The notes under the pieces: generated by a model | The model's input: only the letters and a program-made list of their open reading frames with translations | Databases searched by the model: none | Told to the model about the DNA's origin: nothing | Translations under genes and position numbers: made by a program | Source of the DNA: Leptolyngbya sp. KIOST-1 | GTDB lineage: Bacteria; Cyanobacteriota; Cyanobacteriia; Phormidesmidales; Phormidesmidaceae | Reading direction: 5' to 3' | Assembly: GCF_000763385.1 (NCBI RefSeq) | Contig: NZ_JQFA01000004.1 | Span: 806,001-870,000, forward strand | DNA length: 64,000 bases | Shown here: positions 4,547 through 8,160 of the stretch, piece after piece | Layout: each line of letters begins with the position of its first letter | Position numbering within the stretch: the first letter of the stretch is position 1

Positions 4547-5410
4547 TCACCCCACACTATCCAACTCCTGCTGCCAGATCTGCTCCTGCAGGGCCTCGTT
4601 CTCCAGGCTGAGGGCCACCGCTCGCTGCTTCAGGCCGTCGCGTTCGGCAGCGATCTCCTGGCAGCGGTACTTGAGGCTGGTCTGCTGGTGGAACTGCTGC
4701 CCCAGCTCGGTGCTGAGTTCGGCGATTTTTTGCCGCTGGGCCTCAATGATGGCCCGCAGTGCCACGGGATCGTCCGCCTCTGAGGGTTGCTCTGGGGAAG
4801 CGGGGGGCAGGGCGAGAGACATGGGCGGTTCGATCCCCCCCCCTACCCCCTGGTGGGATGCGTTGACGTAGGCCTGCATCCGGGCCAGGGTAACCTGGTG
4901 GCGGGTGAGGGTGTTGTCGAGGTGCTGAATGTGCTGCTGGGCCGCCTGGAGCTGGCTGCTAAGGCTAACCGTGAGCGATCGCGCGATCATCACCTCAGAG
5001 TTCAAATCCAAATTTTGCCCGGAGGGGCGACCCAGGGCCAAGTTCTGGTAGTGGTTCTTGAGCCGCACCAGGTAGTCCTGCACCTCGGCCTGGCCCTGCT
5101 GAATCCGCACCCGCAGCCGCTCTAGCTCCAGCTGCTGGTCGGTCACCAGGCCTGTCACCCCACCCAGCAGCTGGTCGAGAACCTCGTGCTGCCACTGGTC
5201 TTTGGCCTCGAGCTGCTGCTTGAGGTTGACAATGATTTTTTGCTGAACGTTGGAATATTCTTCGGTTTGGACGAGATGAGCCTGGAGCATCTGGTGGTTA
5301 GCCAACTGCTCCTGCATGTCTTCTAGGGATTCTTTGGCCTGGTCGAGGGCCTGCTGCAGCAAACAAACACGTTGAACCAGCTTGAAGTCCAGCGAGCTTT
5401 CCTGGAACAT
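4547..5410 (-). CDS. Coiled-coil protein of unknown function
   Basis: A 287-residue Gln/Leu/Glu-rich protein. Residues about 10-135 and 180-285 show heptad-like spacing typical of long coiled coils (LQQALDQAKESLEDMQEQL; QIEELST-like C-terminal helices). A Pro/Ser linker separates them near residues 200-225. No signal peptide or membrane span is visible. It resembles cyanobacterial scaffold-type coiled-coil proteins without a named family. It appears monocistronic, with 230 bp ahead of its start. A second unrelated coiled-coil gene lies at 59007. Confidence 0.7.
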   Translation of the reverse strand: MFQESSLDFKLVQRVCLLQQALDQAKESLEDMQEQLANHQMLQAHLVQTEEYSNVQQKIIVNLKQQLEAKDQWQHEVLDQLLGGVTGLVTDQQLELERLRVRIQQGQAEVQDYLVRLKNHYQNLALGRPSGQNLDLNSEVMIARSLTVSLSSQLQAAQQHIQHLDNTLTRHQVTLARMQAYVNASHQGVGGGIEPPMSLALPPASPEQPSEADDPVALRAIIEAQRQKIAELSTELGQQFHQQTSLKYRCQEIAAERDGLKQRAVALSLENEALQEQIWQQELDSVG

Positions 5411-5646: not shown

Positions 5647-8160
5647 CTAAAAGCCCGGAATCAGGCTCCACAGGCTGAGGCCCAGCAGGACCGTGCAGGC
5701 GTGCTGAAGCCAGCGCTGCAAACTCGACTGGCGACCAATTTTGGTGGTTAGCCACACCGACAACCCCATTCCCAACAGCAGCGTTGCTCCCTGTAGAAAG
5801 GCTACCACTGCTGGGTGGGCAACCCAAACCGGCAGATTTGCCCCTGAGAGTCCAAAGGTGGCTAAAGACACGGGCAAAACGCGCCCCCCCTCCCCCAGAC
5901 CCAGGCGCAAATAATGGGCCAAATTGGCCGCCCACACCAGGGGCAGATAGCCGTAGGCCAGCCGCACCACAGGTCGGGGGGATAGGCCCCGGGACTTGCG
6001 CCAGAGCCCCTGCGCCCCCTCCACCCCCAGGGGTAGCAGGGCGGGCAGCGCCAGCACCCCCAGGGAGACCAGGCTGTGGCCCAGCACTGTCTCTGTGGGC
6101 AGCTGAATGCCCAGCCGGGTCTGGATTTCAGGCAGACGGTGCAGGTACACTGCCCCCAGCAGCAAAAACATCAGCGCCACCTCAGCGGCGCGGGGGCGGT
6201 GGGTGGTCCACAGCTCGATACCGGGGGGGCGCAGGTTTAGTTCGACGGAGCGGTGGGGGCAGGCCTTGAGACAGGTCATGCAGAGCACGCAGTCGCGGTT
6301 GTCTTCCAACTGGGCCGGGTGGGAGTACAGGGGGCAACCGTTGGTCTCCTGGCCCTCCCCTTTGGCGGGGCCGCCCTTGTAGCACTGGTAGGTGGTGCAC
6401 TCCGCCGAGCAGGTGCCCTGCTGCGCCCGCAGCTCGGTCACGGAGAGCTTGGCGAACATCCCGTTCATGCCGCCGATGGGGCACAGGTAGCGGCACCAAA
6501 ACCGGCGCTCAAACAGGGCCGAGAAGATCATCGCTCCGGCGGTGATCAGCAGCAGCAGGCAGGCGGAGAGGTAGGCGGTGTTTTCTAGATTCCACACCTC
6601 TTCCCACACCAAGATCAGGGCAAATAGGGCGAACAGAAACCAGGCGCCCCAGCGCTCGGCGGCCTGACGGGGCCAGCGTTTGAGTTTTCCCGGAAATAGC
6701 CGCTGCGAAATCCACTGGGTGACTTCGCCGTAGATCATAAACGGGCACACCGCGCACCACAGCCGCCCCACAACCGGAAAGCTCAGCAGCACCAGGGGCC
6801 ACCACCAGGCCCAAAACACGGTCAGCGCCACGTTCTGGTCTCGCGCCTGGGGGCCAAGCCAGAGCACCGCCACGACGACGGCAAACAGGCCCAGGGTAAG
6901 GCCGTAGTTGATGCGATCGGGCCACCAGGGGCTGCGCAGAAACCGGCGCAGGCCGGGGTAGCGGTTGAGCAGGTTCAGCCGCAGCTGTTTCTTTTTGCTT
7001 TGGGCGGGCCAGATGATTTCTTCGGTGATCAGGCCGCCGCCGGAGAGCTGGGCCGCCGCCCGCTCCACCAGGTTCTCCAGCTCCCGCAGGTTGTTGGGGA
7101 AGTCGTAGGACTGCAGGCGGCGAATGGCCTCGGGGGCAACGGTGATGCGCCCGGTACCCCGGCGGCGGCAGATTAGCGACAGGTAGTAGTTGACCCAGTC
7201 TTCGATGTCGGCCTTGCGCACCCGCAGGGGCGGCACCTTGATGGTGTCGTCGATGGCTTCATTGAGGGTGGGCAGCCCCTGCTCGGAGAGCAGAATAATT
7301 CGGGCTTCGGAGGTGACCAGCGGGGCGTCGCCGTTGCGGCCCACGGGGCGGTACTGCCCGGTTTTGAGCAGCTCGGCCACGGGTTCGACCAGCTCGGCAT
7401 CCAGTTCGTTGGGGTTGTTGAGCACCAGGGTGCCTGCCCCCAGCGCCCCCAGCAGGCCCAGCCTGCCGCCCGATCGCCCAAATAGGTCAGCCCCGCTGGC
7501 CTGGAGCTGGCCGCAGTCGACTTTGATGATGGGCTGCCGCCGCTGGATGGAGCCAAAGTGAATCAGGGCGGCCAGGTTGTCTTTTTCCAGCCCCGGCTCG
7601 CCAAAGATCAGCACCGATCGCCGATGGCTGGCGGCTTGGCGAATTTCGGCCCGCAGGCGATCGCCGTAGCGGCTGCGGCCAATGACTCCCCGCTTGGCCT
7701 TGGCCACCAGGTAGGGGCGCAGCACCCCCTGGCGCTCCTGCTCGCGGTCAAACTGAAAGGACAGCCGCTTGACCGCGTCCACCAGCTGCCGGGTAAAGGT
7801 CTGCAAAATGCCGGGGTATTGCTCGACCAGGGCCTGAAACTGGGCGCGATCGATAAACCACAGGGTGCTGTCCGTGAGGGTGCGGATGGTTTGGGCCACG
7901 GGCTGTTCCAGCAGCAGCGCCTCCAGGTTCAGCACCGCGCCGGGCAAAAAGCTGACGCCCCCCAGGTCCGCCTCGGTTTCGAGCTTGCCCTGCCAGAGAA
8001 TGTACAGTCCCTCGGGGTCTCGTTCGGCCTCGACCACCGTATCCCCCGCCGCCAGGGTGAGGGGCTCTAAACGCTGGGCCAGGGGCGTCAGGGTGGTCGC
8101 AGGCAGCAAACTCAGGGGCGTGCGCTCCTGCAAAAAGATCACCCGGTCGGATACAGTCAT
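5647..8160 (-). CDS. CRP-like sensor / degenerate AAA+ / membrane 4Fe-4S fusion protein
   Basis: About 837 residues. Residues 1-130 resemble a cyclic-nucleotide-binding (CRP) fold. Residues 160-385 resemble a sigma54-activator AAA+ domain. Residues 400-837 hold several membrane spans with CxxCP (469-473) and CRYLCP (556-561), an intervening set of cysteines, and a ferredoxin motif CxxCxxCxxxCP (624-635), as in NapH/NosR/CcoG-type proteins. The ATPase looks inactive. Walker A is GEPGLEKDN, the GAFTGA loop is missing, and Walker B reads LVLNNPNEL instead of LFLDE. The FPNNLRELENLVERA sensor segment is retained. There is no C-terminal DNA-binding helix. ATG 8160 is preferred over an upstream codon at 8310. 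Confidence 0.8.
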   Translation of the reverse strand: MTVSDRVIFLQERTPLSLLPATTLTPLAQRLEPLTLAAGDTVVEAERDPEGLYILWQGKLETEADLGGVSFLPGAVLNLEALLLEQPVAQTIRTLTDSTLWFIDRAQFQALVEQYPGILQTFTRQLVDAVKRLSFQFDREQERQGVLRPYLVAKAKRGVIGRSRYGDRLRAEIRQAASHRRSVLIFGEPGLEKDNLAALIHFGSIQRRQPIIKVDCGQLQASGADLFGRSGGRLGLLGALGAGTLVLNNPNELDAELVEPVAELLKTGQYRPVGRNGDAPLVTSEARIILLSEQGLPTLNEAIDDTIKVPPLRVRKADIEDWVNYYLSLICRRRGTGRITVAPEAIRRLQSYDFPNNLRELENLVERAAAQLSGGGLITEEIIWPAQSKKKQLRLNLLNRYPGLRRFLRSPWWPDRINYGLTLGLFAVVVAVLWLGPQARDQNVALTVFWAWWWPLVLLSFPVVGRLWCAVCPFMIYGEVTQWISQRLFPGKLKRWPRQAAERWGAWFLFALFALILVWEEVWNLENTAYLSACLLLLITAGAMIFSALFERRFWCRYLCPIGGMNGMFAKLSVTELRAQQGTCSAECTTYQCYKGGPAKGEGQETNGCPLYSHPAQLEDNRDCVLCMTCLKACPHRSVELNLRPPGIELWTTHRPRAAEVALMFLLLGAVYLHRLPEIQTRLGIQLPTETVLGHSLVSLGVLALPALLPLGVEGAQGLWRKSRGLSPRPVVRLAYGYLPLVWAANLAHYLRLGLGEGGRVLPVSLATFGLSGANLPVWVAHPAVVAFLQGATLLLGMGLSVWLTTKIGRQSSLQRWLQHACTVLLGLSLWSLIPGF

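Follow-up and report, generated by a model that had tools for sequence, protein, structure and literature searches.

A cyanobacterial membrane iron-sulfur protein carrying a degenerate ATPase domain of the sigma54-activator type

Architecture and spread of the protein

The stretch of DNA analysed here (the window) comprises 64,000 nucleotides of the genome of Leptolyngbya sp. KIOST-1 (contig NZ_JQFA01000004.1, positions 806,001 to 870,000) and contains, at 5647..8160, a gene whose product combines a cyclic nucleotide-binding (CNB)-like domain, an AAA+ domain of the type found in the sigma54-activating enhancer-binding proteins (EBPs), apparently a pseudo-ATPase, and a NapH-like membrane iron-sulfur module. 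A first-pass annotation had proposed this combination from the letters alone, and Pfam domains above their cut-offs and relatives in 104 of the 386 genomes of the phylum bear it out, with the gene now placed on the minus strand. The open reading frame (ORF) encodes 837 aa, with its ATG at position 8160 and its stop codon at 5647-5649. Starting instead at an in-frame TTG (8310) would lengthen the protein by 50 aa; in close homologues (e.g. L037), however, the equivalent of the ATG is separated from the preceding stop by just two codons, which weighs against this start.

The protein begins with the CNB-like domain (residues 1-120, 7801..8160, this and all following parts on the minus strand), in which Pfam recognises cNMP_binding (PF00027) at residues 35-115 with 44.8 bits against a curated cut-off of 27.5. 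A long predicted helical linker follows (residues 121-155, 7696..7800; a helix spans residues 117-150 in the structural model), and then the alpha/beta domain of the AAA+ part (residues 156-300, 7261..7695), which matches Sigma54_activat (PF00158) at residues 160-294 (42.9 bits, cut-off 20.2), and its lid (residues 301-390, 6991..7260), identified as AAA_lid_14 (PF25601) at residues 313-386 (48.1 bits, cut-off 27). The membrane half consists of four hydrophobic segments with a ferredoxin part (residues 391-645, 6226..6990) and of further hydrophobic helices (residues 646-837, 5650..6225), which are, judging from models, hydropathy and conservation, the least conserved portion of this half. Fer4_5 is found here in two stretches at residues 536-573 (33.4 bits, cut-off 22), and Fer4 at residues 621-636 stays under its cut-off (16.6 bits versus 21.1). 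No helix-turn-helix (HTH) family is among the 12 Pfam families listed for the protein up to an E value of 1, and no DNA-binding domain was found; by hydropathy, membrane-type segments stand behind the lid, at the place occupied by the Fis HTH in EBPs. Scanning the whole protein against NCBIfam returned NorR (83.2 bits) and NifA (82.4 bits) first, and NapH with 58.8 bits, each far under its own cut-off.

Besides the window genome itself, the positive genomes of the protein search comprise two from its family and 101 from its class; counted by genus, relatives were found in 62 of 143. In 75 of the 104 the match is near full-length, running from residue 25 or earlier to residue 810 or later (one of the 75 has an internal stop). 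Chance or an assembly artefact is ruled out by the four domains above cut-off together with these near full-length matches, and the two halves form one gene and not a sequencing join, because long frames recur across many genera. A scan of genome contigs yielded 129 relatives, from which 80 loci were kept. Their titles are all cyanobacterial except that of L093, where a full-length copy, 64% identical, sits in an assembly named Candidatus Gracilibacteria; this is probably mis-binned cyanobacterial DNA.

Three clades were distinguished. Identity to the window protein is 53-91% in group A, to which it belongs, 38-43% in full-length members of group B and 45-51% in those copies of group C that are in one piece. 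In a quick tree (44 rows of group A, 18 of B and 6 of C), groups B and C each lie on one side of a branch with a Shimodaira-Hasegawa-like approximate likelihood ratio test (SH-aLRT) value of 100, the only kind of support calculated, and the program cautions that the branches of B and C, both long, meet. The protein search found a single copy in the window genome. This genome has five further PF00158 matches, of which the two inspected look ClpB-like by eye. Two group A copies each are present in G054 (L130, L013) and G066 (L131), and the second copy of G054 has an altered P-loop, GEPSSGKDN. Some assemblies carry shorter or interrupted copies (e.g. L087, L096, L097, L101, L102), and in three genomes the copy is split into two overlapping frames (L127 in G342, L128 in G257, L149 in G207). 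In G284 (L129) the core with the AAA+ and ferredoxin parts is missing: a frame of 256 aa goes straight from the initial portion of the CNB-like domain to the C-terminal membrane part.

To judge by the ratio of nonsynonymous to synonymous substitution rates (dN/dS), every part of the protein is under purifying selection: in nine comparisons with near relatives, which all share the window protein and are not independent, the ratio was 0.12-0.18 for the AAA domain, 0.06-0.26 for the lid, 0.16-0.36 for the CNB-like domain and 0.05-0.12 for the iron-sulfur and membrane part.

The AAA+ domain and the absence of sigma54

An AlphaFold model built from 44 rows (mean predicted local distance difference test score, pLDDT, 81.3) was used to examine the AAA+ part. 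In the fold search this region, lid included, matches NtrC1 (1ny5) with a Z score of 24.7 and a root mean square deviation of 2.3 over 227 residues, tied with others, and alignment confirmed the motif losses that had been read from the sequence. The GAFTGA loop is missing, as had been claimed: the corresponding stretch of Azotobacter NifA faces an 8-residue gap in the window protein (HMMER alignment, 75.8 bits for NifA), and none of the 30 alignment rows shown has such a loop. The Walker B motif, normally DE, reads NN in the window protein (residues 248-249), again in agreement with the first reading. The position of the Asp is Asn in 43 of the 44 group A rows and that of the catalytic Glu is Asn in all 62 rows of groups A and B, and in the six group C rows the latter is Gln in three, Gly in two and Asn in one. 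Neither arginine finger is present in the window protein, because residues 288-312, the finger region of EBPs, contain no Arg in the sequence or in its alignment with NifA.

The P-loop (GEPGLEKDN, residues 187-195) had been described as poor. It is indeed degraded, but not ruined, since its Lys (K193) is kept in 68 of 68 aligned rows. GEPGLEKDN is the prevailing form in groups A and C, with GLGKDN in some A rows and one C row, and all 18 loops of group B have GKT at their end (GSGKT in some). The mean column identity of the P-loop block is 0.84, against 0.64 for the whole alpha/beta domain; the AAA+ part of group C is more eroded than that of the other groups. These substitutions indicate that ATP hydrolysis has very probably been lost in all three clades, and nucleotide binding may persist because the P-loop Lys is universally kept. 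With EBPs such as NtrC1, NtrX, NorR, NifA and PspF the window protein thus has in common the AAA+ fold with lid and the P-loop Lys; it differs from them in having no GAFTGA loop, Walker B DE, arginine finger or detected Fis HTH, in being encoded by a genome without sigma54, and in the membrane segments that follow the lid.

This last genome-wide statement derives from a search of the window genome with the sigma54 profiles PF04552 and PF04963, which gave zero matches; in control genomes both profiles were positive in 4 of 14. Among the 386 genomes of the phylum PF04552 matched 11 at E <=0.001, and two of these lie above the profile cut-off (a fragment in G125 and a marginal match in G224). The match in G125 (L136 1459-2067; C1:411956-412339) is an ORF of 202 aa with a sigma54 DNA-binding domain (62.1 bits, model positions 33-159 of 160); it looks like a short rpoN remnant, and the same genome has a group A protein. 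In the accessible parts of the published surveys, sigma54 and its activators were absent from all 29 cyanobacteria considered in 2011 (PMC3162934), RpoN was listed in Thermoleptolyngbya in 2024 (PMC10775510) and two exceptions among cyanobacteria were named in 2025 (PMC12316311). The premise of the first-pass annotation, that cyanobacteria generally lack sigma54, is therefore right, and would be wrong only if "generally" were replaced by "always". With the GAFTGA loop, the Walker B Glu, the arginine fingers and sigma54 itself all gone, its corollary that the domain has no conventional activator function holds as well.

The membrane module and the CNB-like domain

The hallmark of the membrane half is a set of 12 Cys (469, 472, 556, 560, 584, 588, 593, 609, 624, 627, 630, 634), invariant in 44 of 44 rows of one alignment and in 68 of 68 rows of another. 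They lie in a module of four predicted transmembrane (TM) helices with a CxxCP and a CxxxCP pair and two cluster motifs, one a 4Fe-4S motif of ordinary spacing and the other (the first cluster) atypical. From hydropathy and the charge of the loops, the ferredoxin loop is predicted to lie on the side of the N-terminal half, the cytoplasm, together with the CxxCP in which the second segment ends. The module had been called NapH/CcoG-like, and the first of these names is the one that can be kept. TIGR02163 (NapH/MauN) matches the module with 60.7 bits over 179 residues, far under the cut-off of 213.05, and the module fits the pattern that we take to define this family, CxxCP/CxxxCP pairs between TM segments plus a cytoplasmic 4Fe-4S motif. 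It departs from NapH/MauN in the atypical spacing of the first cluster, in the extra C-terminal helices and in the presence of a cytoplasmic N-terminal half. CcoG, for which the NCBIfam library presumably holds a model, is not among the four families that match the module up to E 0.01, and a match to NosR is weak (18.1 bits, cut-off 1000).

A sequence search for relatives of the membrane half among solved structures gave weak matches only (best E 0.0095), and a fold search with a 450-aa model of this half found nothing under E 0.001 (best Z 6.5). The latter result excludes nothing, because the part that carries the clusters is modelled with very low confidence (pLDDT <50 at about residues 581-630). 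The same membrane module stands alone outside cyanobacteria, in Deinococcus ficus (L119), haloarchaea (L134, L135, L140) and Azospirillum (L138). The last of these lies beside an FTR1 iron permease, and we take it to be FtrD-like. These proteins have no AAA+ or CNB part in the aligned frames and show 21-31% identity; the Deinococcus one has all 12 Cys in the alignment, while the haloarchaeal and Azospirillum ones lack several Cys of the two clusters, L138 keeping one of the four of the first cluster.

As for the N-terminal domain, the idea of a literal cyclic-nucleotide sensor did not survive closer examination. The CNB fold is shared with CRP/FNR; what distinguishes the window protein from these regulators is the lack of a detected HTH and, at the aligned positions, of the Glu and Arg that mark the phosphate-binding cassette. 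At the aligned Glu position group A has Leu in 41 of 44 rows, Ile in one and a gap in two, and at the Arg position Val, Thr, Ala, Ser or Ile in 40 of 44, with a gap in three and one row not printed. The A1 alignment likewise has no Arg in this column among the 37 letters printed of 38. One column further on, Arg occurs in 5 of 38 group A rows and 2 of 6 group B rows, and a small shift of the alignment would leave a minority of proteins with this residue. For group B two alignments disagree about the cassette residues, and neither has Arg at the cassette Arg column. A cyclic nucleotide is thus an unlikely ligand, because the cassette Glu and Arg are absent at the aligned positions of group A. 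Moreover, the domain is missing altogether from group C and from some group A proteins. In all 20 positive f20 genomes the matches begin at query residue 145 or later; in five A-type genomes (G014, G109, G119, G346, G193) they begin at residues 121-141, and in group B genome G087 at 163. The CNB-like domain appears dispensable and accessory, because entire lineages do without it.

Genomic setting and possible role

A way to approach the function of such a protein is through its neighbours. We have clustered the genes around 97 loci (the window and groups A, B and C together) and inspected the 40 largest families, within flanks that mostly extend to about 6 kb or less and are often ended by the contig. 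In these loci no operon partner of group A was found. The most-shared families are confined, or nearly so, to the near relatives of the window; an example is the coiled-coil-like ORF (by eye, without a Pfam match) at window positions 4547-5410, downstream on the same strand, whose family is present in 15 of the 97 loci. The widest other family, response regulators by eye, reaches eight.

The setting of group B is more telling. Where the DNA behind the gene is long enough to tell, in 19 loci, 14 have cysK immediately after it on the same strand (present in L109, L111-L118, L142-L144, L148 and L149, absent from L126, L141 and L145-L147; L108 and L110 end too early), and the one in L116 scores over the cysK cut-off. 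Three of these loci (L115, L146 and L149, the last with its gene split in two frames) were placed in group B by similarity, outside the tree. Among the other neighbours, L109 has SQR-like genes (scoring under the cut-off for SQR) as well as ArsR and MBL-fold ones, L116 has acsF, heme oxygenase and hemN, and L112 an HdrB-like gene. Annotated petC and psbA are found on plasmids of Aulosira and Pseudanabaena (L117, L118), and rhodanese and DsrE on the Pseudanabaena one. A small neighbour in L145 has no Pfam match, and its reading as a rubrerythrin was dropped for that reason. This setting looks like a sulfide/low-oxygen gene cassette, in some cases in islands and partly on plasmids. In group C a FUR-family gene follows the gene in L123, and L128 has a gene of the same cluster.

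For experimental information we turned to Synechocystis. In Synechocystis salina (L095), reading by eye, leuD and pyrG lie to one side of the gene; to the other lie a desaturase and pdxH and, at a greater distance, ffh. This order fits the tags around slr1529 (sll1444, sll1443, sll1441, sll1440, slr1531), and on this basis slr1529 is very probably the Synechocystis counterpart. As far as the available portions of the papers go, a principal component analysis of metabolites at 72 h puts the slr1529 knockout among the six mutants that changed most, and the 72-h Euclidean-distance list of the same study does not contain it (PMC5318462); the gene has an antisense RNA and negative table values under iron deprivation (PMC3516471), and after high copper its ratio is 0.29 (PMC4182526). 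The iron study, in its accessible part, labels it "nitrogen assimilation regulatory protein" (PMC3516471), and the group B protein BAZ78296.1 bears the same label. This nitrogen-regulator label, like the name NtrX, misleads. In the literature searched, chiefly papers outside subscription, we found no description of this architecture.

As far as sequence and model reach, the architecture, the catalytic loss, the constraint, the spread, a genome without sigma54 and the lack of a recognisable DNA-binding domain can be taken as established. Since the ATPase domain has lost its catalytic parts and yet stays preserved, its role is probably that of a switch or sensor rather than that of the gene regulator which the label implies. 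Our tentative preference is for a cyanobacterial membrane redox protein that is gated by, or reports through, a non-hydrolysing, nucleotide-binding pseudo-ATPase. Its core would be a NapH-like polyferredoxin with clusters predicted to face the cytoplasm. The AAA+ domain in front, descended from sigma54 activators, would bind ATP or ADP without turnover and would act on the membrane module via its lid and the stretch before TM1, and the nucleotide state would set electron exchange between the quinone pool and a cytoplasmic partner at low redox (low oxygen or sulfide). The CNB-like domain would provide an optional extra input and not a cyclic-nucleotide site. The suggestion that a ligand or redox signal passes to the iron-sulfur part is possible, and the reverse direction fits too. 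The fuller version, in which a phylum nearly without sigma54 has recruited an AAA+ domain of the sigma54 activators as a non-hydrolysing, wholly non-transcriptional nucleotide switch gating iron-sulfur electron transfer in the membrane, with a paralogue tied to sulfide/low-oxygen photosynthesis, is a possibility that we regard with considerable doubt.

Several observations speak against a nucleotide-gated redox protein. Nucleotide binding may be gone, because a complete Walker A is not the rule in any clade: the residue before the P-loop Lys is Glu in 31 of the 44 group A rows (it is Gly in 18 of 18 in group B), and the first Gly of the loop, present in 44 of 44 in group A, remains in 5 of 18 in group B, with Ala or Ser in the other 13. 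The sensor II Arg survives in 27 of the 44 group A rows and in one of the 18 of group B. In the membrane half no quinone site has been shown, and the ferredoxin part is the poorly modelled one. The link to low redox rests on group B, because group A has no operon partner, and within group B five of the 19 loci are without cysK and several of the 14 that have it are close kin. Finally, the literature search found no experiment on the purified protein.

These difficulties leave room for other explanations. The protein might work in the opposite sense, the membrane clusters sensing redox state or sulfide and the pseudo-AAA+ domain (with the CNB-like one) forming an output surface to which a cytoplasmic partner is bound and from which it is released, in a form of one-component membrane signalling. 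A degenerate AAA+ domain that keeps its fold suits protein binding, ArsR-family and sulfide genes lie near group B, and NosR, of which there is the weak match mentioned above, is called a transcriptional regulator by NCBIfam. Against it, NapH, the best-matching family, and the FTR1-linked Azospirillum protein are read as electron-transfer parts, and a conserved partner gene is missing from group A. The slr1529 mutant points both ways in the available part of the study, by its place among the six largest changes and its absence from the Euclidean list (PMC5318462). On balance we consider this sensor somewhat unlikely. It is unlikely, too, that the protein is devoted to supplying electrons to iron or sulfur metabolism, be it for FtrD-like iron uptake or for reducing a sulfur species on the way to cysteine, and that its N-terminal half is a mere scaffold: the iron permease next to L138, the cysK that group B precedes and the FUR-family gene after group C in L123 would all fit, but no such gene was found to recur beside group A in the loci clustered, the N-terminal half is constrained by dN/dS, and L138 itself retains so little of the first cluster.

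The two remaining explanations have much less in their favour. That the AAA+ and CNB-like parts are functionless passengers in a decaying fossil would agree with the lost catalytic motifs, the further erosion in group C, the lineages without the CNB-like domain and the internally deleted 256-aa remnant that is all that the L129 genome keeps; we find it improbable in view of the dN/dS of the AAA domain in nine of nine (non-independent) comparisons, the universal P-loop Lys and the 75 near full-length matches. A true transcription regulator of the NtrX/NtrC kind would explain the database labels on BAZ78296.1 and slr1529 and the hidden Markov model similarity to NorR and NifA. The sigma54 route is refuted, and the absence of an HTH from the Pfam scan, of the GAFTGA loop, of an arginine finger and of sigma54 from the genome, as well as the membrane segments behind the lid, make such a regulator extremely improbable.

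We are thus left with a conserved family of which some members are filed as nitrogen regulators, a function that is impossible in the sigma54 sense. On the reading preferred here, that of a membrane redox protein with a nucleotide-binding pseudo-ATPase, the idea can be put to a direct test in a laboratory strain, since slr1529, the probable counterpart, has reportedly been knocked out, to go by the accessible part of that study (PMC5318462). The family would offer a natural pseudo-ATPase of the EBP lineage that works outside transcription, and may connect the state of the nucleotide pool or the redox state with the flow of electrons in the membranes of oxygenic phototrophs.

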